Assembly: GCA_011523365.1 (NCBI GenBank)
Contig: WTGY01000151.1
Coordinates: 1-64,000 of the forward strand
Length of the DNA stretch: 64,000 nucleotides
From: Caldilineaceae bacterium
GTDB lineage: Bacteria > Chloroflexota > Anaerolineae > Caldilineales > Caldilineaceae
Direction of reading: 5' to 3'
Shown piece by piece: positions 8,378-29,066 of the stretch; position 1 is the stretch's first letter; the number at the start of each line of letters is the position of its first letter. The position numbers and the translations under genes are program-made. Below the pieces are notes generated by a model that saw nothing but the letters and a program-made list of their open reading frames with translations, searched no databases and had not been told where the DNA came from.

Positions 8378-9421
8378 CTAAGAGTGCGCTGTCTGTGGAA
8401 CGGGCGCGTCCAGGGTTCCGGCCAGGTCCAGTTCGAGGGCGCGGTGGCAGCTCACCGCGTGGCCGGGGGCGACCTCTTCCAGTTCGGGGGTGCGCTCGCG
8501 GCAGAGGTCGACGGCGTAGCGGCAGCGGGGGTGGAAGTAGCAGCCGGAAGGCGGGTTGGCGGGGTCGGCTACTTCGCCCTCGAGGATGATTCGCTGCGAG
8601 CGGAGGGTCGGGTCCGGCAGGGGCACTGCGGAGAGCAGGGCTTCGGTGTAGGGGTGTTTGGGAGATTCGAAGAGCTGCTGCGTTTCGGCGGTCTCGACGA
8701 CGCGGCCGACATACATGACGGCGACGCGGTCGCAGATGTGCTTGACGACGCTGAGGTCGTGGGCTACGAACAGGTAGGTGAGGCCGAGGCGCTCCTGCAA
8801 CTCCAGCAGGAGGTTGAGGATCTGTGCCTGCACCGATACGTCGAGCGCCGAAACGGGCTCGTCGGCGACGATAAGGCTCGGGTTGAGGGCGAGTGCGCGG
8901 GCGATGCCGATGCGCTGGCGCTGGCCGCCGCTGAAGGCGTGTGGGAAGCGTTGCAGGAACTCGGGTCGCAGGCCGACCAGGGCGAGCAGCTCTTCCACGC
9001 GTTCGACTCGCTGCCGACGGTCCGTCACGCCGTTCACGAGCAGGGGTTCGCCGATAATGTCGAACAGGGTCATGCGCGGGTTCAGCGAGGAGAAGGGGTC
9101 CTGGAAGATCATCTGCATGTGGCGGCGCAAGGGTTGCAGTTCGTCCCTGGACAGATTGGCGATGTCTGTCATTTCGCCGTCGTCGACGCGGAAGTGGATT
9201 TCTCCGGCCGAAGGTTGCAGCGCACGCACGATACAGCGGGAGGCGGTCGTCTTGCCGCAGCCGCTCTCTCCGACGATGCCGAAGGTCTCTCCCTTGTAGA
9301 TGTGGAAGTTAAGGCCGTCCACGGCGCGGACCTGGCCCACCGCGCGCTGCCAGAAGCCCTTCCGTATCGGGAAGAATTTCTGTAGACCTTTGACCTCCAG
9401 CAGAACCTGATCGTTATCCAT
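8378..9421 (-). CDS. ABC importer ATP-binding protein, DppF/OppF type
   Basis: Cytoplasmic ATPase of 347 aa for importer 2. It has Walker [10 protein letters not shown] (about 53-61), signature FSGGQRQR, Walker B LIVADEP and the switch histidine in VAHDLSVV. The C-terminal oligopeptide-family extension carries the Cys-rich GCYFHPRC segment (about residue 300) that may hold an Fe-S cluster. It is the last gene of a five-gene importer operon and lies 52 nt after its OppD-type partner; such ATPases work as heterodimers. Because three of the five importers in this window are of the same family or related and lack ATPases, this pair could in principle serve others. Confidence 0.95.
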
Positions 9422-9473
9422 AGTGTCAATCGTACAAGGACTGAATCTGTCGTCCAGTGGTCGGATTCGACCG

Positions 9474-10508
9474 CTACGAACCGGCTTCCGGTACCGGGTG
9501 ATAGAGGAAACAGCTCACCAGGTGCTCATCTCCAACTGTATGCAGCTCAGGCTCGTGCTTGTCGCAGACGCCCGGGATTACGTCCGGGCAACGGGGGTGA
9601 AACGGGCAACCGGCCGGGCGGTTGTAAGGGTGGGGGATGGTTCCGGTGATCGTGGGCAGCTGCACCTTGGGCGTCGAGTGGATGCTGGGTATCGAGCGCA
9701 GCAACGACTGCGTATAGGGATGCTTCGACTCCCCGAATACTGCATTCACCGGGCCCTCTTCCACCACCCGCCCCAGGTACATCACCACGACCTGGTCGGC
9801 CATCTCCGCGATGACGCCCATGTTGTGGGTGATCAGCATGATGGCCATGCCCTTCTGATCCTGCAGCGAGCGCAGGAGATCGAGGATCTGGGCCTGGGTG
9901 GTCACATCGAGGGCGGTCGTCGGTTCGTCGGCGATGAGGACTCTGGGATCGCAGGAGAGGGCGAGCGCGATGAGGGCGCGCTGGCGCATGCCGCCGCTGA
10001 GCTGCATTGGATATGAGTCCACGGCCGACTCGGCGCGGGGAATCCCTACAAGGCCAAGCAGCTCGATCACCATCTCGCGGGCCTCCTGCTTCGAGATCTG
10101 GCGGTGCAGGCGGGCGGCCCCGATTATCTGATTGCCGATGGTGTGGACAGGACTGAGGGAGGTCATCGGCTCCTGAAAGACGAGCGCGATCTCGGCGCCG
10201 CGAATCGAACGCATCTCTCTGCTATTTTCGCCCAGAGAAGTCAGCGCCACGTCCTGCGACTGCCCGTTTTCGGTCTCGCGGCGAAGCGTGATTTCTCCAT
10301 CGACGATGCGACCGGGCCGCGGCACGATGCGGAGGATGGACAGGGCGGTAACGCTCTTGCCGCAGCCGCTCTCGCCCACGATGCCAAGTGTCTGACCAAG
10401 GTGGACATCGAAGGTGGCGCCGTCGACGGCGCGCACGACTCCCTCATCGGTGAAAAAGTTTGTTTTGAGGTTGCGCACCGACAGGATCGGTTGAGAATCG
10501 TTTTGCAT
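9474..10508 (-). CDS. ABC importer ATP-binding protein, DppD/OppD type
   Basis: Partner ATPase of 344 aa. Walker A is GESGCGKSV, the signature LSGGMRQR, Walker [13 protein letters not shown] and the switch His is in LITHNMGVI. The oligo_HPY C-terminal region contains [11 protein letters not shown]. It follows the DppC-type permease gene by 57 nt. The Met start matches the family N-terminus ([11 protein letters not shown]), although the ribosome-binding site is weak. Confidence 0.95.
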
Positions 10509-10565
10509 CAGATCAATGGCTGATAGTCAGCGGCCGGGCTACGCTTGGCGGCACGGGTCAGGATT

Positions 10566-11708
10566 TCAAATGCCATACGGATCGGCCGCGTCGCGCAGTC
10601 CGTCGCCCATGAAGTTGAAGGCTAGGATCACGACAACGACGGGGATCGCCGGCAGCAGCAGCCAGGGCGACAGGGCGACGGTCTCCACGTTCTGTGCCTG
10701 CTGGAGCATCACGCCCCAACTGATTGCGGGCGGGCGCAGACCGAGGCCGAGGAAACTCAGTGCCGTTTCCGCTAAGATCATGGCCGGGAGCGACAGTGTT
10801 ACGGTGGCGATGATGTGGCTCTGGAAAGAGGGCACCATGTGGCGGAAGATGATGCGTTTGCGGCTGCAGCCGGCCAGTTCGGCGGCGGTAACGAAGTCCT
10901 CTTCGCGTAGTGATAGAAAGCGGCCGCGCACCTCGCGTGCGAGGCCGGTCCAGCCGCGCAGCGCGATGACGATCGTAATGGCAAAGTAGACCTGTTCAAC
11001 GCTCCATTCTCTGGGGACGGCAGCAGCCAGTCCCATCCACAGTGGAATCGTAGGAATGGAGCGGAGTATCTCGATGAGACGCTGGATAATGTTGTCTGCT
11101 ACGCCTCCATAGAAGCCTGAAATCCCGCCAAGTATTACGCCGAGCACGAGACTGAGTGCAACGGCGACCAGCCCAATCGTCAGGGAGGTGCGCGTGGCAA
11201 AGATGAGGCGGGACCAGACGTCACGGCCCAGAGAGTCTGTTCCCAGGAAGAACAGGGATTCGTCTACCCTGGCTCCCACAACGCCAAACAGATGGAGGTC
11301 GGATGGGATGAATCCCAGGAAATCGTATTTATAGCCGCGCGCGAAGAGGCGCAACCGTATCTTCTGGTCAGGATCTGCCTCGTAGACCCGTTTGAAAGTC
11401 CTCAAGTCACGTTTTCCCGAGACCGCGTAGACATGGGGGCTGAGTCTACCGTCGTCAAAGAAGCGGACAGGTTGAGGCGGCATCAGGGATCGGTAGGCTT
11501 CCGTGGATTCCGGGTCAGTATAGGCAAAGAAATCTGCGCCCAGCACGACGACGTAAAAGGCGGCGACGATTACGGTCGCGGCGACCGCGACGCGGTGTTT
11601 GCGAAACCGCCACCACATCAGCTGCATCTGGCCGGCAACGAAGATTCGCTCTTCGCTGTCGACAGTTATCTGTTCCTGACCTACTTCAACGCTTTGCTCG
11701 ATGGTCAT
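10566..11708 (-). CDS. ABC importer permease, DppC type with long external loop
   Basis: Membrane subunit of 380 aa, longer than the usual ~290. A ~35-residue cytoplasmic extension precedes the first helix (about 42-62). An insertion of roughly 90 residues (about 65-155) then precedes the LGTDSLGRDVWSR motif and BPD_transp_1 core. This long periplasmic insertion is known from a subset of family-5 importers whose binding proteins are also enlarged, and the cognate binding protein here is 691 aa. The gene lies 54 nt downstream of the DppB-type gene. Confidence 0.9.
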   Translation of the reverse strand: MTIEQSVEVGQEQITVDSEERIFVAGQMQLMWWRFRKHRVAVAATVIVAAFYVVVLGADFFAYTDPESTEAYRSLMPPQPVRFFDDGRLSPHVYAVSGKRDLRTFKRVYEADPDQKIRLRLFARGYKYDFLGFIPSDLHLFGVVGARVDESLFFLGTDSLGRDVWSRLIFATRTSLTIGLVAVALSLVLGVILGGISGFYGGVADNIIQRLIEILRSIPTIPLWMGLAAAVPREWSVEQVYFAITIVIALRGWTGLAREVRGRFLSLREEDFVTAAELAGCSRKRIIFRHMVPSFQSHIIATVTLSLPAMILAETALSFLGLGLRPPAISWGVMLQQAQNVETVALSPWLLLPAIPVVVVILAFNFMGDGLRDAADPYGI

Positions 11709-11762
11709 TGCCGGGAAAACAAGCAGTGAAACGGGCGTCGGATGGTTGCCACGACCGTCCCC

Positions 11763-12755
11763 TTACTGAATTATGCCTAGACGTATGCGCGGATCGACCC
11801 ACATCAGCAGCAGGTCGGACAGGAAAGTGCCGATGACGGTCATGGAGCCGAGCATCAGGACGATCGTACCGGCCAGGAACATGTCTTGAGCGATGAGCGA
11901 TCCCAATAGAATCGGGCCGAGTGTCGGCAGGCTTAAAACGACGGAGACAATGACGCTGCCTGACAGGATATAAGGCAACAGGTAGCCGATCGTGCTGACA
12001 AAGGGATTGAGAGCGACGCGCACGGGATACTTGAGGACCAGGCGGTGCTCGGCCAGCCCCATGGCGCGGGCCGTAATGACGTAAGGCTTGCGCAGCTCGT
12101 CCAGTAGATTTGCACGCAATACGCGGATAAGTTCCGCGGTACCGCTGAGGGCGACTACGAAGGCGGGTAAGGGGAGGTGGGCGAGGAGGTCTTTCACTTT
12201 GCCCCAACTCCAAGGTTCCAGCTGGTATTCCGGAGAGAACAGACCGCCGACATTGGCCCCGAAGAGGTAGAAGCCCAGGTACATCAGCACCAGGGCCAGG
12301 AGGAAGTTGGGTACGCCCAGACCGATGAACCCGAGAAAGGTGAAAGTATAATCTCCGATCGAATACTGACGCACCGCGGAATAGATACCGATCGGAACTG
12401 CAATCGCCCAGGTAAGAATGACAGCCCCCAGTGAGACGGCGATCGTCATCGCAAGCCGGTCTCCGATCACTTCGCGGACCGACTGCTTCCATAACATGGA
12501 GACGCCGAAGTGGCCCCGGACCATGTTGCCAACCCACCTCAGGTACTGTTCGTGGATGGGTTTGTCCAGAGCATACTGGCGGCGCATGGCCTCCATCTGC
12601 TGCTCCGAGACGTCGGTCTCCATGACGGCCAGCTGGGCCATGTAGGCGTCGACAAAGTCCCCGGGCGGGAGCTGGATGATGATGAAGGAGAGCACCGAGA
12701 CGGCCCACAACGTGAAGATGGCCAAAATGGCGCGACGAGCAAAGTATGCGAGCAT
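11763..12755 (-). CDS. ABC importer permease, DppB type
   Basis: Membrane subunit of 330 aa. It has an N-terminal helix (about 8-28), an ~80-residue loop, the LRGNF-like segment VRGHFGVSML and the BPD_transp_1 core with the KPYVITARAMG coupling helix. The start ATG has GGAGG about 7 nt upstream. It is separated from the upstream binding-protein gene by a 215-nt gap containing a large hairpin. Confidence 0.92.
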   Translation of the reverse strand: MLAYFARRAILAIFTLWAVSVLSFIIIQLPPGDFVDAYMAQLAVMETDVSEQQMEAMRRQYALDKPIHEQYLRWVGNMVRGHFGVSMLWKQSVREVIGDRLAMTIAVSLGAVILTWAIAVPIGIYSAVRQYSIGDYTFTFLGFIGLGVPNFLLALVLMYLGFYLFGANVGGLFSPEYQLEPWSWGKVKDLLAHLPLPAFVVALSGTAELIRVLRANLLDELRKPYVITARAMGLAEHRLVLKYPVRVALNPFVSTIGYLLPYILSGSVIVSVVLSLPTLGPILLGSLIAQDMFLAGTIVLMLGSMTVIGTFLSDLLLMWVDPRIRLGIIQ

Positions 12756-12863
12756 CCCGAAGCCTCCGCGATATGCAGCAATTCAACGCGACGCGTAGAG
12801 GTGAAGCGAAGGGGACTCCCGGGCTCACCCGATAAGTGCGCCCGGGAGAGTTCATGCAGGTCT

Positions 12864-12914
12864 GACGCCGCCAATTCAGCAGCTTGTTCCGGGCTGAATT
12901 GGCGGATCAGCGTC
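12864..12914 (-). promoter_or_regulatory. intercistronic hairpin between binding protein and permease (importer 2)
   Basis: A perfect 11-bp stem CGCCAATTCAG/CTGAATTGGCG (12869-12879, 12894-12904) with a 14-nt loop. It is extended outward by a second 5-bp GACGC/GCGTC stem (12864-12868, 12910-12914) across a 5-nt bulge. There is no T-run, so a stabilising or processing element is likelier than a terminator. Confidence 0.65.
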
Positions 12915-12970
12915 TAACCCAGGAATCGCGGCATCGCCCCCAGAATACTGAAGGCGATGCGACTCAGCTT

Positions 12971-15046
12971 CTACTGATCGGTGAAGTACCAGGTCGGCGG
13001 ATGGCCGCTGGCAGGCGTGCGGCAATGCTGAGCCGGGCAGCCGCGCCGCGGAACATTGCCCATGTTGTTCTTGGTGACTGCGACACCGGCGGACTGGCCG
13101 ACGGTACCCATACTCCACACCTGGTCAACCACGAGCATCCAGATCTCCTGGCCGATCTTGTTGCGCTCTTCGGCGCCCACGGTAGCGCCCTTCCGGAACA
13201 GTTCGAGCGCTCTTTCCATCTCGGGATAGGGAGGCGCCATGCCATCCTCACCGCCGCTGACGAACCAGCGGGCGATTTCCGGACCCATGTATGCCTCATT
13301 TGTGTTCACGGGAAGGACGTGGCGGGGGTAGAGCCAGAGCTGGGAAGCGCCGCCGTTGCCCCAGATGCCGATCTGGTGCTTATTGGCGCGAGCTTCGGTC
13401 TCGAACAGGCTGCGCTCCTGGGCCTTGAGGTCTGCCCAGATGCCGATATCCTTCCAGTGGTCTTTCACCATTTCGGCGATGGGCTCGTTGCCGCCCGCGA
13501 CCATGCCAATCTCGATGCGCAGCCGTTCACCCGAGCCGTCCGTCCGCAGGCGGAAGCCTTCGTCGTCCTTCTCGGTGAGTCCGATGGCGTCCAGCATTTC
13601 GTTGGCCTGATCGGGCTCGTGTGTGGCCCACTTCGTCACGTACTCCTCTCCTGCGGTCGAAGGCAGGTCGGGTGAACACATGACGGAACCGCCTACGCCC
13701 AAACCGAGGAAGTAGGCCTCATTGATCTGGTCGCGGTCGATCCCGAGTGACAGGGCTCGACGGAAGTCTACGTTTCGAATCCATTGCTGGATCTCGTCGT
13801 CACCGTCGTAGCTGTGGTTGAAGTGGAAACCGGCCGAATGGCAGAAGCCGCGACCGATATCGACCCGGTAGTCTCCTGTTCCCATGTTCTCGATGAGGAC
13901 GGGAAGTCTTGAGATGCTGATGTGGCGGCCCTGGAAGTCGATTTCGCCGGCGAGGGCGCGCAGGAGGAGGACTTCTCTATCCTCGGCCAGCGTTACGACG
14001 ATTTCGTCGATGTAGGGCAGCTGGTTGCCTTCGGTGTCAACGGCCCAGTAGTAGGGGTTGCGGACCTCGGACCAGACGGCCTCATTGACGGGCGTAACCG
14101 TCTTCCACGGCCCCATCGTCGGCACATCGGGGTTGTGTGGCAGATAGGCCATATAGCTGAACATTTCCAGCCAGCTTTGGAAGCCTTCGGCCTCGGCCTT
14201 GGCCGTCACCTCTGCCTCGGAGGAGTACGCGGGCAGGAACTGGCTCATGTAGTGCTTGGGCATGTAACCGCCGCCGTTCCATGCACCCACCGTGTCCGGG
14301 CCAACGCCGACAGCATTGTGACCGGCAAGGATGTCCAGGAACAGCGGAAAGGGCGCGGCGAATGTCCAGCGCACCGTGAAGTCGTCGACCGCTTCCAGAA
14401 GGCCGACTTCGCCGCCGATCATCATCTCATTGGGCGGGGTGGGCCAGATCTCCTCGTTCAGCGCGACGTCCTCGTACCAGAAGAGGATGTCTTCGGCGGT
14501 GAAGGGGTGGCCGTCAGACCACTTGGCGCCGCGGCGCAGATGGAGCGTGTACTGCGTGTGGTCCTCGTTGATCTCCCAGTCTTTGATCAGGCTGGGGATG
14601 ATCTTGGAGGCGTCGTAGTTCCAGGTGAGCAGACGGGACGAGGAGTTGATGCGCATCAGGTTCTCGCCGTCGGCGGGCCCTGTGAAGCCGCGTCGCCATG
14701 TGCCGCCGTACTTGCCGATCTCATGGAGCGGCTCGATGACGTAGATGTCTTCGGGATCGGGCAGCCGTTCTTCCACCGGCGGCAGCTCGCCGGCGGCCAC
14801 CATTTCGGCCAGCATCGGCGCTTCACTGAACTCGGTGGGGAACATGGCCGGGTCGAGGATCACTTCCGGCCCTTCTATCGGTACGATTTGGGGCAGTTCG
14901 GCCGGCCCCGCGGCCTCTTCCTCTGCGGCTGCCGGGGCGGCCTCCTCGGCCGGGGCAGCCTGTTCTGCCGGGGCACCGCAGGCCGAAAGCACAAGGGCTA
15001 CAACCATCACGATTCCCAACAGCCACGAATATTTCGTCCGGTTCAT
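12971..15046 (-). CDS. ABC importer substrate-binding lipoprotein, family 5, large form
   Basis: Exported receptor of 691 aa, larger than typical DppA/OppA (~540 aa). The signal peptide ends in LSAC with the lipid cysteine at C23, followed by an Ala/Glu/Pro linker to about residue 55 and the SBP_bac_5 domain. The chosen ATG has AAGGAGG at the right distance; 15 residues upstream in the same frame are disregarded. It is the first gene of the five-gene importer operon. The ~100-residue excess and the loop in its DppC partner suggest a bulky ligand, such as an oligosaccharide or long peptide. That is inference only. Confidence 0.93.
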   Translation of the reverse strand: MNRTKYSWLLGIVMVVALVLSACGAPAEQAAPAEEAAPAAAEEEAAGPAELPQIVPIEGPEVILDPAMFPTEFSEAPMLAEMVAAGELPPVEERLPDPEDIYVIEPLHEIGKYGGTWRRGFTGPADGENLMRINSSSRLLTWNYDASKIIPSLIKDWEINEDHTQYTLHLRRGAKWSDGHPFTAEDILFWYEDVALNEEIWPTPPNEMMIGGEVGLLEAVDDFTVRWTFAAPFPLFLDILAGHNAVGVGPDTVGAWNGGGYMPKHYMSQFLPAYSSEAEVTAKAEAEGFQSWLEMFSYMAYLPHNPDVPTMGPWKTVTPVNEAVWSEVRNPYYWAVDTEGNQLPYIDEIVVTLAEDREVLLLRALAGEIDFQGRHISISRLPVLIENMGTGDYRVDIGRGFCHSAGFHFNHSYDGDDEIQQWIRNVDFRRALSLGIDRDQINEAYFLGLGVGGSVMCSPDLPSTAGEEYVTKWATHEPDQANEMLDAIGLTEKDDEGFRLRTDGSGERLRIEIGMVAGGNEPIAEMVKDHWKDIGIWADLKAQERSLFETEARANKHQIGIWGNGGASQLWLYPRHVLPVNTNEAYMGPEIARWFVSGGEDGMAPPYPEMERALELFRKGATVGAEERNKIGQEIWMLVVDQVWSMGTVGQSAGVAVTKNNMGNVPRRGCPAQHCRTPASGHPPTWYFTDQ

Positions 15047-15182
15047 CTTTGTCCCTCCTTTTGGGATGATGAAAGTCCTTCTGTGGGTCAACTGGATGGA
15101 TTCACCTCTGGCAATTGGTCTAATTCAATGTGTTCGAGCTCCCCGCGAGGCGTCAGTGCCGGGCAAGGTGCCGAACAAATCG

Positions 15183-16505
15183 TCAAACAGCTTCCTCCTT
15201 TTTTTCTTGACGAGGTATCTGCTGATAAAAGGCATCCCACCACTCTGATCTGGGGAGTGCCTGGTCCTGGTCGAGGATAGCCTGGAAGCGCGTCAGAACC
15301 TCTTCGTAGCGTTGCTGCATGGCCTCCATCGAATCGAATTCCGGCAGCAGCCATCTGCGTCCAATCTGGGCATGCAGAACCTCGTCAGCCCAATCAAAAT
15401 CCTGAAACGTAGTCGACAACGGGTCGCCCGATTCGCGGGCGACCTTATACTCGAGTTGCTTCCCGTCCGGTTTCATCAGCCCCTGTTCGATCCCCCACAG
15501 CAGGCAATGCCGGTCGGCGGGTTCGAGCTGGGTATTGGGAAATTCGCCAAAGCTGATTTCGTGCGGAACTGTCGCCCAATTCAGACCATGCAACTCGAAG
15601 GCGACCTCGCCCATCATGGCGTGGCGCGCTTCATCCCAGAGCTGGCGGGCCATGTCGTGGTAAAACTCCCAGTGTTGGCCGTCCCAGTCGTAGATGATCA
15701 ATGCCATCAGTTCAGGGACGTGCATTTCGGTCAGCCGCATGTAGAGCTGAAACCAGTTGCGCTCGGTAGCGGAGATGTCGGCGCCGGCGGGGAGGCGCCC
15801 GCGTGAGTGCCACACCCTGGTAAAGCGTTCATCTCTTTGCGGTGTCCGAAGTGGGTTGAATGGCTCTGCGGCTCGGGCCGGCGGCAGCTCCTTCTCCGTT
15901 GCCCGCTCACCATCGGCGGCAATGCCGCCGGCGGCATCCAGGTAGGCCTGCAAGTGCGCCGCCCAACAATCCCCAGTTTCAGTGTCTTCTTTATCGATCA
16001 GGTTACGCAGCGTGGCATCGCCCCAGGCGAACTGTTCTTCTTCCTCAAGTAGAATGAACCTGAGCAGGCGCCGCGTAGGTTGATCGACCAGCGGGTTCGC
16101 TTCGGCAAGATGACGCTGCATGGCCGCGATGCTGGCCGGTTTGAGGACCCGGTATACGCCGGTCAGCAGCTCAAGCGTGGTGCGGGAGCGGATCAGTTCC
16201 TGGAAGAAGGCGTCCAGGGCCGGGTCAGGGATGCGGTCGAGGTGGAGAGGCGGCGTGCGCATCTCTTTGACGCGGTTACGCAGCCATGTGCAATGTTCTG
16301 CGTCCTGCCACAGGTGGAGCGCTAGACCGCACTTCACCTCCCACTCGGGCACAGCGTTCAGGTGGGCGGCCAGACAGCGCATCGTCTGGCTTTCGACAAA
16401 CAGATAGCGCCGCAGCAACTGTACAGTGCGTTCAACACTGTAGCCCGGCTGGCCGCCCTGCTCATAGGTGCAGAGGCCGGCAATCGGCGGTGCAGTCGCG
16501 TTCAT
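15183..16505 (-). CDS. ferritin-like diiron-type protein, family not recognised (paralog 1)
   Basis: 440-aa predicted cytoplasmic, mostly helical protein of unassigned function. The C-terminal half shows a complete ferritin-like ligand pattern: E260, then E292-x-x-H295 (DEARHAMMG), E340, then E375-x-x-H378 (ADEVLHAQ). Spacings of 32, 48 and 35 residues resemble bacterioferritin (33, 43, 33). The N-terminal half is also helical with E/H-rich helices (around DAEH 69-71 and LLEEEE 152-157) and may be a second, degenerate bundle. Its paralog at 29967 aligns across the whole length and keeps the same motifs. A TTG start 30 nt upstream is possible; ATG 16505 was chosen. It is downstream of the SDR-propeller array and upstream of importer 2. 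It could be a diiron oxygenase or oxidase; the reaction is unknown. Confidence 0.7.
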   Translation of the reverse strand: MNATAPPIAGLCTYEQGGQPGYSVERTVQLLRRYLFVESQTMRCLAAHLNAVPEWEVKCGLALHLWQDAEHCTWLRNRVKEMRTPPLHLDRIPDPALDAFFQELIRSRTTLELLTGVYRVLKPASIAAMQRHLAEANPLVDQPTRRLLRFILLEEEEQFAWGDATLRNLIDKEDTETGDCWAAHLQAYLDAAGGIAADGERATEKELPPARAAEPFNPLRTPQRDERFTRVWHSRGRLPAGADISATERNWFQLYMRLTEMHVPELMALIIYDWDGQHWEFYHDMARQLWDEARHAMMGEVAFELHGLNWATVPHEISFGEFPNTQLEPADRHCLLWGIEQGLMKPDGKQLEYKVARESGDPLSTTFQDFDWADEVLHAQIGRRWLLPEFDSMEAMQQRYEEVLTRFQAILDQDQALPRSEWWDAFYQQIPRQEKKEEAV

Positions 16506-16617: not shown

Positions 16618-17514
16618 TCAGATCTTGACCAACTTGCGTGCCTTGTTGCCTTCGGTGCCCAGCTCGGCTACGAAAATATTTCCCTTTGAGTCGCACCAGA
16701 TGCCGTGCGGCATCGACAGGCCGGTTTCTTCGCCGCGGAAGCGGCCGACCAGTTCGCCGGATTCGTGGAAGATCGAGACGCCGATCGGCGCGGGGCCTTT
16801 GCCCAGCGAGCCGCCCTGTTCGGCCACGTAAATCAGCTGGTCTGGGCTGCAGTAGACATCGCCGGGACCGTTGACGTCCTCCCACATGGTGATGAACTCG
16901 CCCTCGCGGTCGAAGAACTGAATGCGGCTGGACTCCCGATCGCAGATCAGGATCCGGTCCTGCGAGTCGATGCCGATCTGGTGCACGAGCGCGAACTGGC
17001 CCGGCTCGATGCCGGAGGTCCCCCAGGAGATTTCCAACTCGCCCTCGGCGGAGAAGCGGTGGACCTGGCGGTTGCCGTAGCCGTCGGCGGTGAAGATGCT
17101 GCCGTCGCTGGCGATGGCCACGCCGGCGGGCATGTTGAAGGGGGGATCCAGCGTGGTGCCGTAGGGCGTAACGGTCATCATGGCCCAGCCGCGGCGGCCC
17201 AGCTCGAGCAGCTTCTCGCCGTGCTGAGTGTGCTTGGTGACGACGTGCTCCTGGCGGTCGGTGACCCACACATGATCTTCGGCATCGATGAAGATGCCGT
17301 GCGGCTCGGTGAACTCTCCTTCGCCCCAGGAGGTGATGAAATCTCCGGTCTCGGCCTCGAAGGCGACGACGGGGTGTTTGTGGCGGCAGAAGACGAAGAC
17401 GCGGTCGCGGGAATCGACTGCCACATCGGGCACGGAACCGAGCGACCAGCCTTCGGGCACCTTCGGCCAGGAATCGTCCAGTTCGTAGCGAAAATCGCCA
17501 TATCCAACTGTCAT
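16618..17514 (-). CDS. NHL-repeat six-bladed beta-propeller protein (copy 1)
   Basis: 298-aa propeller with no signal peptide. Repeats of the NHL type (for example VAVDSRDRVFVF, PHGIFIDAEDHVWVTD, AGVAIASDGSIFTAD, IGIDSQDRILICD, PHGIWCDSKGNIFVAE) define about six blades. The arrangement with PHGI and HQIG histidines near blade centres resembles peptidyl-hydroxyglycine lyase-like and SMP-30/lactonase-like propellers. GGAGG about 9 nt before the ATG supports the start. It is paired 51 nt downstream of an SDR gene. A lactonase acting on the SDR product is an attractive inference but is not shown by sequence. Confidence 0.8.
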   Translation of the reverse strand: MTVGYGDFRYELDDSWPKVPEGWSLGSVPDVAVDSRDRVFVFCRHKHPVVAFEAETGDFITSWGEGEFTEPHGIFIDAEDHVWVTDRQEHVVTKHTQHGEKLLELGRRGWAMMTVTPYGTTLDPPFNMPAGVAIASDGSIFTADGYGNRQVHRFSAEGELEISWGTSGIEPGQFALVHQIGIDSQDRILICDRESSRIQFFDREGEFITMWEDVNGPGDVYCSPDQLIYVAEQGGSLGKGPAPIGVSIFHESGELVGRFRGEETGLSMPHGIWCDSKGNIFVAELGTEGNKARKLVKI

Positions 17515-17565
17515 AATCAGCAGTCCTCCGGTGTCGCGCGCGAGTGCGGCGCGCAGGGGTGAAGG

Positions 17566-18357
17566 TTACTCCTTGCGCCAGTGGTCGTCGGCGCTGTCGG
17601 CGGGCATGAAATCTAGCAGCTCCCAGGCGTAGGGCGTGTCGTAGATCTTCCAGGTGTTGTTGGACGCGCCGTAGATGATTTCGTATTTGATGTCGGGGCG
17701 CTCGACGCAGGCGCGGAAGAAGCCCTTGGCGTCGCGGTGGCTGAACCAGCTGACGAGCGAGCGGTAGTCCTTGCCGGGGGCATTCCAGGGCGGGAGGGTG
17801 CCGAGACGGACGCAGATGACTTCCATGGGTCGTTCGTCGGGGCGGTCGATGTTTGCGCCCTCGGTGTAGTAGCGGCCGAGGGACTCGCCGAAGACCTTGG
17901 TTGCGCCGTAGCGGCTGTCGGGCCTGGCGTCATCGTCGCCTTTGACGAGGGGGATGGAGGCCGGATCGAGGCCGTCGAGGCGGCCTGAAACGATGGAAGC
18001 GTAGGGCTCGTCGAACTCGTAGCAGCCCATGACGTGCATGGAGCTGGCGAAGATGACGCGGCGGACGCCGGCATCGTGGGCGGCGTCGTACATGCGCGCG
18101 GTGGCGATCAGGTTTGGATTGGTGAGAACGTCCCAGCCGATTTCGACCTCGTGGCGGGGGTCGGCGGCGAGGTGGATGACGACGTCCATACCCTCGAAGA
18201 CGGGCGGCAGCGCGTCAGGGTCGCAGAGGTCGACCTGGGAGGAGTTGGGCCAGTCGGACGGTTTGACGTCGATGCCGTAGACATCGTGGTCGCGGCTGAG
18301 GTCGGGCGCCAGGAAAGTTCCTATGGTACCGCTGATGCCGGTTATGAGGATTTTCAT
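17566..18357 (-). CDS. SDR dehydrogenase, uronate dehydrogenase-like (array copy 1)
   Basis: 263-aa Rossmann protein. The nucleotide motif TGISGTIG (6-13) and acidic D30 after beta-2 indicate NAD preference. The serine is in FASSMHV (S105/S106) and the catalytic YGATK gives Y150 and K154. Length and the segments WFSHRD and YGASNN resemble uronate dehydrogenase, which oxidises galacturonate/glucuronate to aldarolactones. Function is inferred from resemblance, not proven. A perfect-consensus promoter lies directly upstream and AAGGAG precedes the ATG. The propeller gene follows after 51 nt. Confidence 0.85.
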   Translation of the reverse strand: MKILITGISGTIGTFLAPDLSRDHDVYGIDVKPSDWPNSSQVDLCDPDALPPVFEGMDVVIHLAADPRHEVEIGWDVLTNPNLIATARMYDAAHDAGVRRVIFASSMHVMGCYEFDEPYASIVSGRLDGLDPASIPLVKGDDDARPDSRYGATKVFGESLGRYYTEGANIDRPDERPMEVICVRLGTLPPWNAPGKDYRSLVSWFSHRDAKGFFRACVERPDIKYEIIYGASNNTWKIYDTPYAWELLDFMPADSADDHWRKE

Positions 18358-18383
18358 TGAGGTCTCCTTGTGGGATAGCGCCC

Positions 18384-18412
18384 ATTATAAGCGGGGGGGC
18401 GCTTCTTGTCAA
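18384..18412 (-). promoter_or_regulatory. perfect-consensus sigma70 promoter inside the SDR array
   Basis: On the minus strand TTGACA (18407-18412), 17-nt spacer, TATAAT (18384-18389). All 12 bases match consensus. It lies about 27 nt before the ATG of SDR copy 1 and makes that gene, the propeller and probably the ferritin-like gene a separate unit. The remainder of the gap to 18539 is GC-rich with nothing recognised. Confidence 0.8.
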
Positions 18413-18539
18413 GCACCCGGAAAAGGGGGCAAGGCCGGAAGTGTGGTCGAATATCCCGCCATGGGCCGGGCGCGCCAGGCAGTGACCTGGCGCTGGCGGA
18501 GGCTGCCGCAACGGGCAGGGAGCATGGGCCAGGCCCTTG

Positions 18540-19331
18540 CTAGTCCTTGCGCCAGTGATCGGAAGCGTTGTCCCGGGGAACGAAGCCGAGCAGGTCCCAG
18601 GCGTAAGGCGTGTCGTAGATTTTCCAGGTGTTGTTGGAGGCGCCGTAGAGAATCTCGTAGGAGATGTTTGGGCGTTCGACGCAGGCGCGGAAGAAGCCGA
18701 TGGCGTCGCGATGGCTGAACCAGCTGACGAGGGAGCGGTAGTCCTGTTCGGGCCGGTCGAAGCCGGGCAGAGTGCCGAGCCGGGCGCAGATGACCTCCAT
18801 GGGTCGTTCGTCGGGGCGGTCGATGTTGGCGCCCTCGGTGTAGTAGCGGCCGAGCGATTCGCCGAAGATCTTGGTTGCGCCGTAGCGGCTGTCCGGCCTG
18901 CCGGGATCGTCGCCCTTGACGAGGGGGATGGCGGCGGGGTCAAGGCCGTCGAGGCGTCCGGAGACGATTGAGGCGTAGGGTTCATCGAACTCGTAGCAGC
19001 CCATGACGTGCATGGAGCTGGCGAAGATGACGCGACGCACGCCGGCGTCATGGGCGGCGTCAAACATGCGGGCGGTGGCGATGAGGTTGGGGTTGGTGAG
19101 CTCTTCCCAGCCGATTTCGAGCTCGTGGCGCGGTTCGGCGGCCAGGTGGATGACGACTTCCATTCCCTCGAAGACCGGCGGCAAAGCGGCGGGGTCGCAG
19201 AGGTCGGCCTGGGTTGCATTGGGCCATTTGGAGGGTCTCAGGTCGATGCCGTGCACTTCGTGGTCGCGTCCGAGGGCGGGCGCGAGGAAGGTGCCTATGG
19301 TACCGCTGATGCCGGTGATGAGGATCTTCAT
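18540..19331 (-). CDS. SDR dehydrogenase, uronate dehydrogenase-like (array copy 2, unpaired)
   Basis: 263 aa, close paralog of the SDRs on either side, with the same TGISGTIG, FASSMH and YGATK motifs. Differences cluster in the substrate-side segments (LPGFDRPEQD for LPPWNAPGKD, and a C-terminal VPRDNASDH), so altered specificity is possible. The start is the ATG 64 codons into a longer reading frame, matched exactly to the other copies and preceded by AGGAGACAGGA. Unlike the other two it is not followed by a propeller gene, only by 182 nt and then SDR copy 1. Confidence 0.85.
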   Translation of the reverse strand: MKILITGISGTIGTFLAPALGRDHEVHGIDLRPSKWPNATQADLCDPAALPPVFEGMEVVIHLAAEPRHELEIGWEELTNPNLIATARMFDAAHDAGVRRVIFASSMHVMGCYEFDEPYASIVSGRLDGLDPAAIPLVKGDDPGRPDSRYGATKIFGESLGRYYTEGANIDRPDERPMEVICARLGTLPGFDRPEQDYRSLVSWFSHRDAIGFFRACVERPNISYEILYGASNNTWKIYDTPYAWDLLGFVPRDNASDHWRKD

Positions 19332-19444
19332 TCCTGTCTCCTGGAGGGCGTTGAAAGTTTTTGGTTTGCCGATCCTTCCAGATCGTCCGGGCTCCTCTGA
19401 CGCCCTTGCGCCGGAATCAGGCCTCGGCTCTAAACGGTGAATTC

Positions 19445-20341
19445 TCAGATCTTGACAAACTTGCGGGCGCGGTTGCCTTCTTCGCCGAGCTCGGCCACGA
19501 AGATGTTGTCCTTCGAGTCGCACCAGATGCCGTGGGGCATGCGCAGGCCGGTTTCGGGGCCGCGGAAGCGGCAGACCAGCTCGCCTGATTCGTGGAAAAT
19601 GGAGACGCCGCAGGGGAGAGGCCCTTTGCCCATTGCGCTGCCCTGCTCGGCGACGTAGACGAACTGGTCGGGGCTGCAGTAGACGTCGCCCGGCCTGTGT
19701 ACGTCTTCAAACATGGTGATGTAGTTGCCGTCGCGGTCGAAGAGTTGAATGCGGTTGGCCTCGCGGTCGCAGATGAGGACGCGGCCCTGTGTGTCGATGC
19801 CGATGTTGTGGACCAGGGCGAACTGGCCCGGCTCGAGGCCGGAGGTGCCCCAGGAGACTTCCAGCTCGCCTTCGGGGGAGAAGCGGTGGACCTGGCGGTT
19901 GCCGTAGCCGTCGGCGGCGAAGATAGAACCGTCCTGGGCGGTGGCCACGCCGGCCGGCATGTTGAAGGGCGGGTCCAGGGAGGTACCGTAGGGCGTCACC
20001 GTCATCATGGCCCAGCCGCGTCGGCCCAGTTCGAGCAGCTTCTCGCCGTGCTGGGTGTGCTTGGTGACGACGTGCTCCTGGCGGTCGGTGACCCAGACGT
20101 AGTCGTCGGCGTCGATGAAGATGCCGTGCGGTTCGGTGAATTCGTTTTCACCCCAGGAGGTGACGAATTTCCCGGTGTCGGCCTCAAAGGCGACGACGGG
20201 GTGTTTGTGGCGGCAGAAGACAAAGACGCGATCGCGCGAATCGACGGCCAGATCGGGCACCGAGCCTAGCGACCAGCCTTCGGGCAGAGTCGGCCAGGTA
20301 TCGTCCAATTCGTAGCGGAAGTCGCCGTATCCGACTGTCAT
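19445..20341 (-). CDS. NHL-repeat six-bladed beta-propeller protein (copy 2)
   Basis: 298 aa, the same length as copy 1 and nearly identical along the chain, with the same blade motifs and no signal peptide. The ATG at 20341 matches copy 1 and has GGGAGGAAAA upstream; a longer in-frame extension into the preceding SDR gene is rejected. It lies 50 nt after SDR copy 3 and 113 nt before SDR copy 2. Confidence 0.82.
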   Translation of the reverse strand: MTVGYGDFRYELDDTWPTLPEGWSLGSVPDLAVDSRDRVFVFCRHKHPVVAFEADTGKFVTSWGENEFTEPHGIFIDADDYVWVTDRQEHVVTKHTQHGEKLLELGRRGWAMMTVTPYGTSLDPPFNMPAGVATAQDGSIFAADGYGNRQVHRFSPEGELEVSWGTSGLEPGQFALVHNIGIDTQGRVLICDREANRIQLFDRDGNYITMFEDVHRPGDVYCSPDQFVYVAEQGSAMGKGPLPCGVSIFHESGELVCRFRGPETGLRMPHGIWCDSKDNIFVAELGEEGNRARKFVKI

Positions 20342-20391
20342 GTTCGGTTTTCCTCCCATTTTGCGCCCCGGTTGAGGCGGAGAGTTGCAGG

Positions 20392-21183
20392 TTACTCTTT
20401 GCGCCAGTGGTCTTCGGCGCTGTCGACTGGCATGAAGTCGAGCAGTTCCCAGGCGTAGGGCGTGTCGTAGATCTTCCACTTATTGTTGGAGGCGCCGTAG
20501 ATGATCTCATAGCTGATGTTGGGGCGCTCAACGCAGGCCTGGAAGAAGCCGCCGGCATCTCGATAGCTGAACCAGCTCACCAGCGAGCGATAGTCGCGAC
20601 CGGGACGATCGTAGGCAGGGAGCGTGCCAAGACGGACGCAGATGACCTCCATCGGCCGCTGGTCGGGGCGGTCGATGTTGCCGCCCTCGGTGTAGTAGCG
20701 GCCCAACGACTCGCCGAAAATCTTGGTTGCGCCGTAACGGCTGTCCGGTCTGCCGGGATCATCGCCTTTGACGAGTGTTATTGAGTCCGGGTCCAGGCCG
20801 TCGTGGCGGCCGGAAAGGATGGAGAGGTACGGTTCATCCCACTCGTAGGCGCCCATGACGTGCATTGAACTGGCGAAGATGACGCGGCGTACACCGGCGT
20901 CGTGGGCGGCGTCGTACATTCTGGCGGTGGCGATCAGGTTGGGGTTGGTCAGTTCATCCCAGCCGATTTCGACTTCGTGGCGGGGGTCGGCAGCCAGATG
21001 GATGACCACGTCCATGCCTTCGAAGACGGGCGGCAGCGCGTCGGGGTCGCATAGGTCGGCCTGGGTGGAGTTGGGCCAGTCCGAGGGGAAAATGTCAATG
21101 CCATGGACCTCGTGGTCGCGGGCAAGTACCGGCGCCAGATAGCGACCGATTTTGCCGGTGATGCCGGTGATCAGAATCTTCAT
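20392..21183 (-). CDS. SDR dehydrogenase, uronate dehydrogenase-like (array copy 3)
   Basis: 263 aa. TGITGKIG nucleotide motif, FASSMHV serine and YGATK Tyr-Lys pair as in the other two copies. It is the first gene of the array in the direction of transcription, behind a promoter at 21214-21241, and is followed after 50 nt by its propeller partner. It is the most divergent of the three at the N-terminus (IGRYLAPVLA) and around GAYEWDEPYLS, consistent with an older duplication. Confidence 0.85.
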   Translation of the reverse strand: MKILITGITGKIGRYLAPVLARDHEVHGIDIFPSDWPNSTQADLCDPDALPPVFEGMDVVIHLAADPRHEVEIGWDELTNPNLIATARMYDAAHDAGVRRVIFASSMHVMGAYEWDEPYLSILSGRHDGLDPDSITLVKGDDPGRPDSRYGATKIFGESLGRYYTEGGNIDRPDQRPMEVICVRLGTLPAYDRPGRDYRSLVSWFSYRDAGGFFQACVERPNISYEIIYGASNNKWKIYDTPYAWELLDFMPVDSAEDHWRKE

Positions 21184-21213
21184 CTCTGTCTCCTGGTCGG
21201 GAGTTTGGTAATA

Positions 21214-21241
21214 TGTATATGCCAGTACAGTCGGATTTCAA
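21214..21241 (-). promoter_or_regulatory. sigma70-type promoter for SDR array copy 3
   Basis: Minus-strand TTGAAA (21236-21241), 16-nt spacer, TATACA (21214-21219), about 31 nt before the ATG at 21183. Confidence 0.5.
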
Positions 21242-21286
21242 TCGCGAGAATTTTTGGCGAGTTCGCTCGGAGCCGGCAAACTGCGG

Positions 21287-22156
21287 CTATCCAGCTGCCA
21301 CCGCGTCGGGCCAGCGCAGGCGCTCGTCGGGCGTCCGATTCTGCTGCATCGGCTCGACGGCGCCGCGGTAGTCGGGGATGAGCGGCTCGATCTTGGCGAG
21401 CGCATTCTGCGGCCAGTCGGCGTGCTGGTCGTGCATGCGGTAGTGGATCCAGCTCTGCGTCGGTTCCAGAAGGTCGGAGTAGAAGGGGTGAAACCAGATG
21501 GTGATCACGGTGCGTTTTACGTCCGAGAGGTTGGCGTGGGCCGAGTGGAACATGCGCGCGTCGCCGACCACGACATCACCGGCTTTGACCGGCACGTCGA
21601 CCTCGCCGGGGTAGTCGCGGAAGCGGGGGTCGTCCGGGTCGTCTATGCGGTTGATCTCCCTGGTGTGCGCCTCGCCCATGTCGTGGAGGAGATGGCGGTG
21701 GCGGTGGGTGCCGGGGAGCAGGCGCAGGCAGCCGTTGTAGCGCGTGGTGTCCTCCATGTAGTACATGAGGAAGATCATGGGCGGACTGTCGCTGTAGGCG
21801 CGCGGGTCCTGCCACATCAGGCAGTCCTGGTGCCAGTAGAGGCGGGGTCCGCCCGGCGGCTTGCTGATGATGACCGCTTTCCAAAACTTGATCTCCTTGA
21901 GACCCATGCGATCGAGTTCGGCGAGGGCGCGCGGGTTGCCGATCAGATCGGCCAGCTCCGGATAGTCGTTGGAGTCGATCAGGCTGCCGGGCGACTTTGT
22001 TTTTTCCAACCGTTCGGGTTCCACCTCGGCCAGCGCCTTGTCGACACAGGCCCGCGTCCGGTCCAGGAGCCACGCGTCGGCAACATCTTCTATGATGCAG
22101 AAGCCGTATTGCTTGAGTTCCTCCATACGCGCTTCGGGAGTCATATTGGCTGTCAT
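21287..22156 (-). CDS. phytanoyl-CoA dioxygenase (PhyH) family protein
   Basis: 289-aa Fe(II)/2-oxoglutarate oxygenase. The HxD pair is in LYWHQDCLMW (H109, D111). The distal histidine is most likely H204 in MFHSAHANLS, whose spacing to the Asn matches the HxxxxN pattern of the family, and R215 probably binds 2-oxoglutarate. AAGGAGC six nt before ATG 22156 decides the start over an internal ATG four codons later. It is only distantly related to the 405-aa member at 439. It is grouped with the glycosidase-like fusion and a hydroxyacid dehydrogenase on the same strand. Confidence 0.87.
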   Translation of the reverse strand: MTANMTPEARMEELKQYGFCIIEDVADAWLLDRTRACVDKALAEVEPERLEKTKSPGSLIDSNDYPELADLIGNPRALAELDRMGLKEIKFWKAVIISKPPGGPRLYWHQDCLMWQDPRAYSDSPPMIFLMYYMEDTTRYNGCLRLLPGTHRHRHLLHDMGEAHTREINRIDDPDDPRFRDYPGEVDVPVKAGDVVVGDARMFHSAHANLSDVKRTVITIWFHPFYSDLLEPTQSWIHYRMHDQHADWPQNALAKIEPLIPDYRGAVEPMQQNRTPDERLRWPDAVAAG

Positions 22157-22217
22157 CTGTGCTCCTTGCGAGAAATGGGAACTGCGAGAGCCGGCCTACT
22201 TCGGTACGTAGGGCTCG

Positions 22218-24380
22218 CTATTCGGTGGGGGCAACGTCCTTGACGCAGCGGAAGCCGACCGTGCCGCAGCGGTCCAAACCAGGATACATCAGCAGTATCT
22301 TTTCGTGGCAGTCGTTGGGCTGCGCGCCGCTGGCGTTGTACCAGATGCTGCCTTCGACCTTCAGGTAGCTGCCGCCGCGGATGATGGCGTAGCGTGTGTG
22401 GCCGTCGTCGCGTTCGCTTTCGGTCCACTCCCAGACGTTGCCGGCCATGTCGAGGCAGCCGACGTGGCTGGCGCTGCCGGGGAACAGGTCTACCGGCGTC
22501 GTGTCGTCGCTGCCGCTGTTGCAGAGCGTTGGGTCGAAGCCGTCGCCCCAGGGCCAGACGGCAAACCCTGCTGCCATATGCCATTCTTCCTCTAGGGGCA
22601 GTCTTTTCCCGGCCCATGTGGCGTAAGCGCGGGCATCGTCCAGGTCCACCCAGATGACCGGATGCCGCTCCTTGCCCGCCGGCGGCGACCACCGCCAGGG
22701 CTCCTGCTCGCTGCCGGCGGGCTTGTGACAGTGGCGCAGGAAGTTGGTTAGATCGCGCGGCAGGTAGCGGGACTGTTCGAGGAAGTCGAGGTAGGAGGCG
22801 TTGGTGACTTCAGTGCGATCGATCCAGTATTCGGGAAGGTCGATCAATCGCCTGGGATGATACTTGTCCCAGAGCTGGTCGATTTTGTCGTAGCATGCCC
22901 CTTCCATCACCGTCCGGTTGTTGTGGCGTACGCCGAAGTTGACCGGCCCCGCGGTTACGCGGCACATCTCCTCGGGTTCCTCCCCTGCGGCTACAAACGG
23001 TGACGGCTCGACCGGGCGCAGAGAAAGGTCGGCGAGGGTCAAACGCTTGCGGTCGATGCCAGCAGCGCCGTCGCGTGCGGGTTCCTCCTGGCCGGAGTCG
23101 AGGTCGACCTCAATGCCCTCGGGCGCCGAGACGATACATCCTGCCTCGCCGCTGGACATGGAAAGCGCAAGCAGGTGCGCGCCTCCCTGTTGCGACGGCT
23201 CTATTTCGGCGCCGTTCCAGAGGTCGTAGTGGCGCAGCGGGCGGCCGTTGGGCGCGGATGAGGGCGTGCGCAAGACCGGGCCGTCGACAGCGGCGCCCGA
23301 CTCGTTAATAAGTGTGTGCATGGTTGTTTCGCCGCTGTGCCAGCGGTGCGCGTAAACGCCGTCTACTTCCGTGGCCACGTAGGGCTGCCAGTCCCTGTCC
23401 TGGAAGGCGTCCGAGAATTGGCGCAACAACCGCACACAGCGTCGCAGGAGCACGCGATCCGATTCGGGCCAGGGGTTCCACCAGCCAAAGATATTCTCCC
23501 AAACGACCTGGCCGCAACCGTGGAAAAATGCCTTCTGGATGATATCGCTGTGTTCGTCAGCGTTGCGGTCGATGGCGCGAAAAGAAAAGCGCGGCTCCAC
23601 CCAACGAATGGTCATCAGTTCAGGGGGGACAACCGTATTGCGCTGCAGCCAGCTGCCCGCAATCGAGGAGAGGGCTTCTGTGGGGGGCAACGATTCCGGG
23701 TTGAACACAATGTTGGCGTTGGCCCGCTGCATCGGTTCCAGGAAGCCTGGGTCGTCGGAGGCCATCGTATCGAGGAAGACGCCGTCGGCGCCGATCTCCT
23801 TGATCACGGCACCCAAGGCTTCGGCATCGGCCACTGCGGGCGCGTTTGTGTCGGGAAATCTGCCGCGGTAACCCCTTTTGTCGGTATAGGGCGGCGCGCC
23901 CGGCTCGCGGCGCGTGCCGATGTCCCAGGGGTTGTAATTGACGAAGACGCGCACGCCGCGCGCATGGGCGCGGTCAATGACCGCGCGCAGCCCCTGCAAG
24001 CCGCCCGGCATGTCGCGGTAGTAGTCGATCTGGTTGCGGTCATCGATGCCAAGGCGGGGGTAGGACTGCCAGAGGAGGATGATGTCGTAGCCGCCGAACT
24101 CGCGCTCGCCGTCGTCGAGGATTTCGTCGATGCGGTAACGGCCGGCTTCGCGGTCGTAGAAGGCGGTATCGTACATGAAGAGGAAAGCCTCTGTGTAGGC
24201 GCTTCGGTACCATTCGATTCCCTGGCGGGAAAAGAGATCCAGATCGAGCGAGTCGCGCAGGGCATTCCGCATCCGGTCCAGCTCGGCGGCCTCTTCTTCG
24301 TCGCGCCCGATGTGTGCCGAGAAGTCGTTCTGAAAGTTGGCGGCAAATGATGCGAGGCGTTCTGAATCCATTGGTTTCAT
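22218..24380 (-). CDS. fusion: glycosidase-like barrel plus formylglycine-enzyme-like (SUMF1) domain
   Basis: 720-aa protein with no signal peptide. Residues ~1-440 look like a TIM-barrel glycoside-hydrolase-type domain: GLRAVIDRAHARGVRVFVNYNPW and DGVFLDTMASDD recall barrel strands with acidic ends, followed by a beta-rich tail. Residues ~475-715 match the FGE-sulfatase/SUMF1 fold: YWIDRTEVTNASY, KRLPLEEEWHMAA, GNVWEWTES, RGGSY, VGFRC. The stretch after RGGSY lacks the cysteines that formylglycine-generating enzymes use, so sulfatase activation is unlikely; a ligand-binding role is possible. Start is Met1 or Met4. No sulfatase gene was seen in the window. Confidence 0.75.
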   Translation of the reverse strand: MKPMDSERLASFAANFQNDFSAHIGRDEEEAAELDRMRNALRDSLDLDLFSRQGIEWYRSAYTEAFLFMYDTAFYDREAGRYRIDEILDDGEREFGGYDIILLWQSYPRLGIDDRNQIDYYRDMPGGLQGLRAVIDRAHARGVRVFVNYNPWDIGTRREPGAPPYTDKRGYRGRFPDTNAPAVADAEALGAVIKEIGADGVFLDTMASDDPGFLEPMQRANANIVFNPESLPPTEALSSIAGSWLQRNTVVPPELMTIRWVEPRFSFRAIDRNADEHSDIIQKAFFHGCGQVVWENIFGWWNPWPESDRVLLRRCVRLLRQFSDAFQDRDWQPYVATEVDGVYAHRWHSGETTMHTLINESGAAVDGPVLRTPSSAPNGRPLRHYDLWNGAEIEPSQQGGAHLLALSMSSGEAGCIVSAPEGIEVDLDSGQEEPARDGAAGIDRKRLTLADLSLRPVEPSPFVAAGEEPEEMCRVTAGPVNFGVRHNNRTVMEGACYDKIDQLWDKYHPRRLIDLPEYWIDRTEVTNASYLDFLEQSRYLPRDLTNFLRHCHKPAGSEQEPWRWSPPAGKERHPVIWVDLDDARAYATWAGKRLPLEEEWHMAAGFAVWPWGDGFDPTLCNSGSDDTTPVDLFPGSASHVGCLDMAGNVWEWTESERDDGHTRYAIIRGGSYLKVEGSIWYNASGAQPNDCHEKILLMYPGLDRCGTVGFRCVKDVAPTE

Positions 24381-24418
24381 CTCTCCTTCAGTCCGCGGCC
24401 TGAACCGACTGCAAACGC

Positions 24419-25423
24419 TTATGGGCGTGGTTTGAAGCGAGCGATCTGATCGTCCACCCAGGCCAGGTTGGCGTCCTTGGTGCGGCCGGCATTGTGCGGC
24501 GTGTGGACGACGTTGTGCCGCCCAAGCAAGGGGGAGTCCAAAGCCACGGGCTCGATGTCGAAGACATCGGCGGCCAGCGCCAGCTCATCGTTGAGGACGC
24601 GACGATAGAGCGCCTCGGTGTCGCAGATGAGGGCCCGCGTTACCTGTACGACCAGGCATCCGTTCGGCAAGGCGTCAATAAGATCCTTGCCGACCAACCC
24701 GTAGGTATCCTCTTTCAAAGGAAGCATCGGCGCGAAGATCTCGGCATCCTTTACAAGCTCGGGCAGATGAAAGCAACGCTTTGCGCCGGCCGCGGCAAAG
24801 GTTGCGTCGGGAGCAAATGGGTCCCAGACGGCAACGTCGGCGCCCATGGCCGTGCACCAGGAGGCGTAGCGGGCGCCGATATTGCCGGCGCCGACAACGC
24901 GCACGCGTTTGCCAGCGAGCGTGCCGTTGGCAAACCGTGAATCATCGCAATACTGAATGCCTTTCGCGCCCGGTTTGCCCACTTCCGGTCTGTGTTTCCA
25001 AGGTTCATGGCTCTCGATCATGGCTGTGTGGGACTGGGGGATGCGGCGCAGCCCGCAGAGGGTCAGGCAGAGTCCGTACTCGGCCACCGAATGTCCCCAG
25101 TAGATGTCGACGCGGTGGGGAATGATTTGAACGCCGCGGGACGCCGCTATGTCGAGGCCATCTCTAGGATGATCGCCGTGGGAACTGTGGAAGCACTCCT
25201 CAAGGGAGGTAAAGGGCGCGAGGTCTTCGCTGCCGGCAGGGAGGCCGAGGAGGACGAGCCGCTGCACCGCGGCGGGGTCGGGCACCAACTGCGGCGCACG
25301 CGCCTCCGGCTCCAGCGTACGGTAGAGTTCGCAACAGTCGCTCTGCCAGCGTTTCTGCCAATAGTCGGCAGCAAACGGCCAGACGGCGTCGAAACGTTCA
25401 TGGACGCAAATTACCGATCTCAT
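24419..25423 (-). CDS. D-isomer-specific 2-hydroxyacid dehydrogenase family protein
   Basis: 334 aa. The NAD-binding motif VGAGNIGARYAS (about residue 176) and the catalytic triad positions VTRAL (Arg), FDIEPV (Glu) and HTPHNAG (His) are all present. The N-terminal substrate domain is divergent. Family members reduce hydroxypyruvate, glyoxylate or phosphohydroxypyruvate analogues. It would be the first gene of this minus-strand set; the start codon has a weak ribosome-binding site. Confidence 0.85.
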   Translation of the reverse strand: MRSVICVHERFDAVWPFAADYWQKRWQSDCCELYRTLEPEARAPQLVPDPAAVQRLVLLGLPAGSEDLAPFTSLEECFHSSHGDHPRDGLDIAASRGVQIIPHRVDIYWGHSVAEYGLCLTLCGLRRIPQSHTAMIESHEPWKHRPEVGKPGAKGIQYCDDSRFANGTLAGKRVRVVGAGNIGARYASWCTAMGADVAVWDPFAPDATFAAAGAKRCFHLPELVKDAEIFAPMLPLKEDTYGLVGKDLIDALPNGCLVVQVTRALICDTEALYRRVLNDELALAADVFDIEPVALDSPLLGRHNVVHTPHNAGRTKDANLAWVDDQIARFKPRP

Positions 25424-27767: not shown

Positions 27768-27901
27768 CGCGACGTCGGTGAGGGGCAGTGTAGGACCTCA
27801 TCCGCCGGGTCAGCGAGCCGGTGTTCTCTCTGTCCAGTCACCGGAGCGTTATCTCCCTTTTCCTGCGCAGATCAGTCAGGATACGCTTCGAATCGTCCGC
27901 A

Positions 27902-27927
27902 GCCCTGCCCTTGTCAGAGGGCAGGGC
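27902..27927 (+). promoter_or_regulatory. first hairpin in the binding protein-permease gap (importer 3)
   Basis: Perfect 9-bp stem GCCCTGCCC/GGGCAGGGC (27902-27910, 27919-27927) with an 8-nt loop. Ten nt later comes the stronger hairpin with a T-run. The rest of the 27768-28122 gap shows nothing else recognisable. Confidence 0.6.
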
Positions 27928-27937
27928 GCTCGATGCA

Positions 27938-27966
27938 CAGTAGACAGGGGCAACCCCTGTCTACTG
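27938..27966 (+). terminator. terminator-like hairpin between binding protein and permease (importer 3)
   Basis: Perfect 13-bp stem CAGTAGACAGGGG/CCCCTGTCTACTG with a 3-nt CAA loop, immediately followed by TTTT. It has the form of an intrinsic terminator. Partial read-through would give more receptor than permease, as is usual for such operons. Confidence 0.7.
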
Positions 27967-29055: not shown

Positions 29056-29066
29056 GAGAGGTTTTC

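Follow-up and report, generated by a model that had tools for sequence, protein, structure and literature searches.

Two genes in the 64,000-nucleotide stretch of Caldilineaceae DNA that was analysed (the window) encode two-domain ferritin-like proteins, which are best explained as single-chain, PaaAC-like diiron oxidases or oxygenases that probably act in the catabolism of imported, most likely sugar-derived compounds. P0002 (440 aa) is encoded on the minus strand at 15183..16505 and P0001 (443 aa) on the plus strand at 29967..31298; the initial annotation had given no strand for the first of these. Both open reading frames, which it had put at ~440 aa, are real and intact. Comparison of P0001 and P0002 with their orthologues gave dN values of 0.02-0.17 and dS values of 0.24-1.45, the resulting dN/dS ratios of ~0.07-0.17 indicating that both are under purifying selection. 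The two proteins align with each other across ~residues 30-385 with 28% identity (E 4e-32), in agreement with the likeness along their length that had been reported.

The C-terminal halves (~residues 224-410 of P0002, 15276..15836, minus strand; 30627..31217, plus strand, in P0001) are presumed diiron domains, each matched by the A3 profile, and by profile comparison are DUF455 or close to it. P0001 scored 41.6 bits (E 1.5e-10) against Pfam PF04305 (DUF455), above the curated gathering score of 34.3, whereas P0002 scored 26.5 bits (E 5.6e-6), below this cut-off, and is therefore termed DUF455-related rather than a member. No other model was reported when P0001 and P0002 were scanned against Pfam (up to E 10), the N-terminal half being left with none, and an NCBIfam scan of the window proteins gave no match. 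DUF455 was matched by 13 of 15 divergent homologues, and two of the 15 matched Pfam Ferritin and Phenol_Hydrox (best E ~8e-4). On Geobacillus plasmid pGS18, a protein that carries the DUF455 annotation shares the six ligands and scored 112 bits with the C-half profile. A literature search found no function for DUF455, which is scarcely mentioned there. The description of an unrecognised family consequently needs amending for the C-terminal half, which reaches (P0001) or approaches (P0002) a named family, but holds insofar as that family has no function that could be found and the N-terminal half has no model.

A profile built from 15 C-half sequences was used for a PDB-wide search, in which bacterioferritin was the top match (E 1.3e-4), further matches being aldehyde decarbonylase, a VlmB homologue, R2-like oxidase (E 0.019) and ribonucleotide reductase R2; nearly all matches were ferritin-like diiron proteins, and those at E < 0.1 without exception. 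The E-values are modest (1e-4 for the best). Searching the PDB with the single proteins using phmmer yielded nothing useful. In the profile alignments both ExxH motifs and the helix-C glutamate lie in register with those of diiron proteins, which supports the ferritin-like diiron half proposed in the initial annotation.

The presumed iron ligands of P0002, all encoded on the minus strand, are E260 (15726..15728; 62/62 homologues), E292 and H295 of the first ExxH motif (15621..15632; 61/62 and 62/62), E340 (15486..15488; 61/62) and E375 and H378 of the second ExxH motif (15372..15383; each 62/62). Those of P0001 (E259, E292, H295, E339, E372 and H375) fall in the same alignment columns, and the six columns are kept in 14-15 of 15 representatives sharing <60% identity. 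The six residues proposed for each protein from the initial reading were thus found at their positions and mutually aligned. R294 and D374 (P0002 numbering) are likewise present in 62/62 homologues. The sole exception at E292 and E340 is one copy (L076, genome G315) with a lysine at the former and a gap at the latter, which is perhaps decayed. For helix A, the aligner paired E260 with an earlier glutamate, placing E265 opposite the position at which bacterioferritin usually has its ligand; E260 was chosen for its invariance and its fitting spacing, and we infer that it is the helix-A iron ligand. The C-terminal half is accordingly presumed, from these conserved columns, to be a ferritin-like diiron domain with four glutamates and two histidines, a ligand set that cannot separate an oxygenase from a ferroxidase, since bacterioferritin has the same one.

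The N-terminal halves (~residues 24-195 of P0002, 15921..16436, minus strand; ~residues 20-193 of P0001, 30024..30545, plus strand) were compared with the C-terminal halves profile to profile using hhalign, giving E 8e-7 and a probability of 84 with the motifs in register. E38 is conserved in 61/62 homologues, D68 in 56/62 and H71 in 49/62; the helix-D position is occupied by histidine in 8/62 and by glutamine in 42/62, and helix C has no invariant carboxylate among the 62. As the ligand positions vary and the full set is absent, this half is read as a homologous domain, a degenerate ferritin-like bundle, whose metal site has been eroded. AlphaFold2 models of full-length P0002 (pLDDT 44.4) and of the P0001 C-terminal half (pLDDT 45.3), each from an 11-sequence alignment, are of low confidence, and Foldseek found no significant match with either. 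When models were compared using VIA-align, the N-terminal half alone resembled ferritin-like and TenA-like bundles at scores below the caution level for helical bundles (Z ~13); for the low-confidence model of this half of P0002 the nearest structure was toluene 4-monooxygenase hydroxylase chain B, whose Z of 8.5, below that level, is a hint only of a similar fold. The earlier suggestion that the N-terminal half is a second bundle is upheld by the homology of the halves, with weak support from the fold comparison.

The nearest architecture known to us is that of phenylacetyl-CoA epoxidase, in which PaaA and PaaC share a common fold at 17% identity, PaaA being catalytic with diiron ligands E42, E72, H75, D126, E155 and H158, PaaC being thought structural, and the reductase PaaE having an Fe-S domain (PMC4498308). 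P0001 and P0002 would likewise combine a catalytic unit with a homologous unit devoid of the full ligand set, but in a single chain and with a glutamate on helix C in place of the aspartate of PaaA. PF05138 and PF02332 were not matched by the window proteins at up to E 10 in Pfam, and the relation to PaaAC and to the monooxygenases is therefore taken to mean that the proteins may work like these systems, not that they belong to them. Bacterial multicomponent monooxygenases (PF02332) pair paralogous alpha (diiron) and beta (metal-free) subunits. This is a similar coupling of a catalytic and a degenerate unit, to which the Z of 8.5 for the low-confidence model of the N-terminal half of P0002 also relates.

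Evidence on the supply of electrons comes from Chloroflexota relatives in which the two halves are separate genes. In families f91 (genomes G313, G327 and G338-G341) and f96 (G347), a gene for a ferredoxin of 105-111 aa with two 4Fe-4S motifs lies between them, and the order C-half, ferredoxin, N-half is found in every locus complete enough for judgement, some loci being cut by contig ends; in G339 the ferredoxin is present in the intergenic gap and absent from the open reading frame calls. The split sets (for example L125:7837-10911 and L193:8500-11721) are followed by a luciferase-like monooxygenase gene in f91, wherever the locus is long enough, and in f96 by a P450-like gene, judged as such by sequence alone. 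Elsewhere in the scanned neighbour sets this 4Fe-4S motif was seen at one locus only (L120), in a gene adjoining likely respiratory complex I genes, and next to the fused proteins no ferredoxin gene was seen, whether in the window or in the relatives scanned. Because the halves are separate genes of one operon in some genomes and fused in others, they are taken to work together; the ferredoxin gene between them indicates a redox reaction and argues for reductive activation of O2. The preference for an oxidase or oxygenase over storage, expressed in the initial annotation, is supported by this arrangement. Ferritin-like proteins of 203-218 aa were also noted at L086, L088 and L092, the last matching Ferritin and PaaA_PaaC weakly.

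The host genome carries four such paralogues, so that the two first described are both real but are not the whole set, and each of the four keeps a separate conserved neighbourhood across relatives. The surroundings of the two window genes are as first described, and the survey of relatives showed their transport and catabolic context to be conserved. Downstream of P0002 lies an oligopeptide-type ABC importer of two ATPases, two permeases and a binding protein (8378..15091, minus strand; open reading frames identified by reading their sequences), an order retained in most relatives. Upstream, Pfam matches identify NHL/SMP-30-like propellers, epimerase-type SDRs, a PhyH protein, an FGE-sulfatase-domain protein and a 2-hydroxyacid dehydrogenase (16618..25423, minus strand), again in an order largely kept. 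P0001 is preceded by a sugar-type ABC importer consisting of a binding protein (SBP_bac_1) and two permeases (26436..29912, plus strand), conserved with it in 10 loci, and is directly followed by a PfkB sugar kinase gene (31370..32272, plus strand; E 1e-65), also conserved with it. The third paralogue, on contig C16, has as neighbours an HpcH/HpaI aldolase, an aminotransferase, an amidohydrolase, aldo/keto reductases and a zinc dehydrogenase, and the fourth, on C131, a PfkB kinase, an HpcH/HpaI aldolase, a rhamnose mutarotase and a sulfatase. In G076, which holds the closest distant relative of P0001 (47% identity), PfkB is encoded on the same strand as the homologue at a distance of two genes, a GntR regulator gene lying between them, and a nucleoside hydrolase gene is found on the opposite side. 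Other family members are found near glycoside hydrolases or FAD oxidoreductases.

Further features of these neighbourhoods were observed. At 16618-21183 genes for NHL propellers and epimerase-type SDRs alternate in tandem, the SDR copies being 84-86% identical and the NHL copies 85%, with copy number and order differing among relatives (L005-L013). At 22218-24380, a protein of 717-720 aa has a C-terminal FGE-sulfatase domain and a long N-terminal part with no Pfam match, and at 34314-36068 a 584-aa protein with no Pfam match is conserved beside a BNR-repeat protein in relatives.

The genome has 10 PfkB matches, two of them beside paralogues, and 14 HpcH/HpaI matches, with two paralogues near them. 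Two of four paralogues standing beside PfkB is unlikely by chance, by a rough, post hoc estimate (<0.001), both linkages having been spotted after the fact. Transport and sugar genes are abundant in these genomes, so that gene context is weak evidence, and the link of the family to sugar catabolism which it provides is suggestive. The same diiron enzyme could instead act on non-sugar substrates (lipids, aromatics or amines). The PhyH, luciferase-like and P450-like neighbours act on varied substrates, and an oligopeptide-type importer adjoins P0002; against this, the PfkB, rhamnose mutarotase, sulfatase, glycoside hydrolase and HpcH neighbours indicate sugars for several members, and we regard a non-sugar substrate as rather unlikely, although it is the strongest of the alternatives.

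Readings in which the proteins are not catabolic oxygenases are weaker still. Detoxification of peroxide or oxygen in the manner of a rubrerythrin or manganese catalase, guarding oxygen-sensitive neighbours, would agree with the fact that rubrerythrins too combine ferritin-like diiron sites with Fe-S donors. However, cluster-specific paralogues beside kinases, aldolases and importers are more readily explained by a step in a pathway than by general protection, and no Rubrerythrin or Mn-catalase Pfam match was obtained with the window proteins or 15 members, making this role improbable. Equally poor odds are given to a diiron or Mn/Fe ligand-binding oxidase, or a non-catalytic sensor regulating a transporter or kinase: R2-like ligand-binding oxidase is among the profile matches, but weakly (E 0.019), and neither a DNA-binding nor a signalling domain was seen. 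Least probable of all is a role as an iron-storing ferroxidase, the proteins then being lengthened relatives of bacterioferritin, for although bacterioferritin is the best PDB profile match and shares the six-ligand type at comparable spacing, ferritin and bacterioferritin storage subunits are single domains of ~160-180 aa that form 24-subunit cages, unlike P0002 (440 aa) and P0001 (443 aa), each of which adds a homologous but degenerate half. Iron storage was rejected as the lead idea on the strength of this two-domain chain, the placing of each of the four paralogues in a catabolic cluster of its own, the ferredoxin gene that separates the halves in the split form and the failure of P0001 and P0002 to match Pfam Ferritin.

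The distribution of the family was examined in public genomes. The closest relatives of the host genome are Caldilineaceae MAGs, which, from bin names and general knowledge, we take to be sponge-associated. Some match was found in 36 of 400 sampled Chloroflexota genomes. Searching the genus gave group-3 copies in 17/17 genomes (one cut by a contig end included) and full-length group-1 copies in 10 of the 17, with fragments in three more (one at a contig end). Two close relatives contain fragments of the P0002 orthologue (G004:C1:3685789-3686069 and G010:C34:96643-97035), which suggest that this copy was lost there. In a tree of the C-terminal halves, which has several long branches and whose deep joins are unsure, the four host groups fall on separate branches, that of P0001 joining G076 (100/99). 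Scans of viral contigs revealed no relatives, and a plasmid search with P0001 gave no match.

In the preferred reading, a PaaAC-like diiron oxidase or oxygenase, one chain would fold into a pair of homologous ferritin-like four-helix bundles. Of these, the C-terminal one, which belongs to DUF455 or lies near it, would carry the diiron site of four glutamates and two histidines, and the N-terminal bundle, having lost the full ligand set, would probably serve as a structural partner comparable to PaaC or to a monooxygenase beta subunit. A ferredoxin would probably reduce the diiron site, the reduced site would activate O2, and a small molecule would be oxidised or hydroxylated as imported compounds, probably derived from sugars, are broken down; the substrates would differ among the four paralogues of the host. 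Metal binding, O2 activation, the electron donor in the host and the class of substrate are elements of this scheme that we infer. More tentatively, and with less than even confidence, the proteins may represent an uncharacterised class of ferredoxin-driven diiron oxygenases, with domains fused or split around a ferredoxin, that catalyse an O2-dependent step in the catabolism of sugars or sugar acids. What is new here is evidence on how the domains pair, and on how electrons may be supplied, in a known, uncharacterised family. With a presumed diiron site, a degenerate partner and, in split relatives, a ferredoxin, DUF455 becomes a candidate oxygenase open to direct testing; should the link to sugars hold true, carbohydrate breakdown in sponge-associated Chloroflexota would gain an O2-dependent step of the ferritin-like type.
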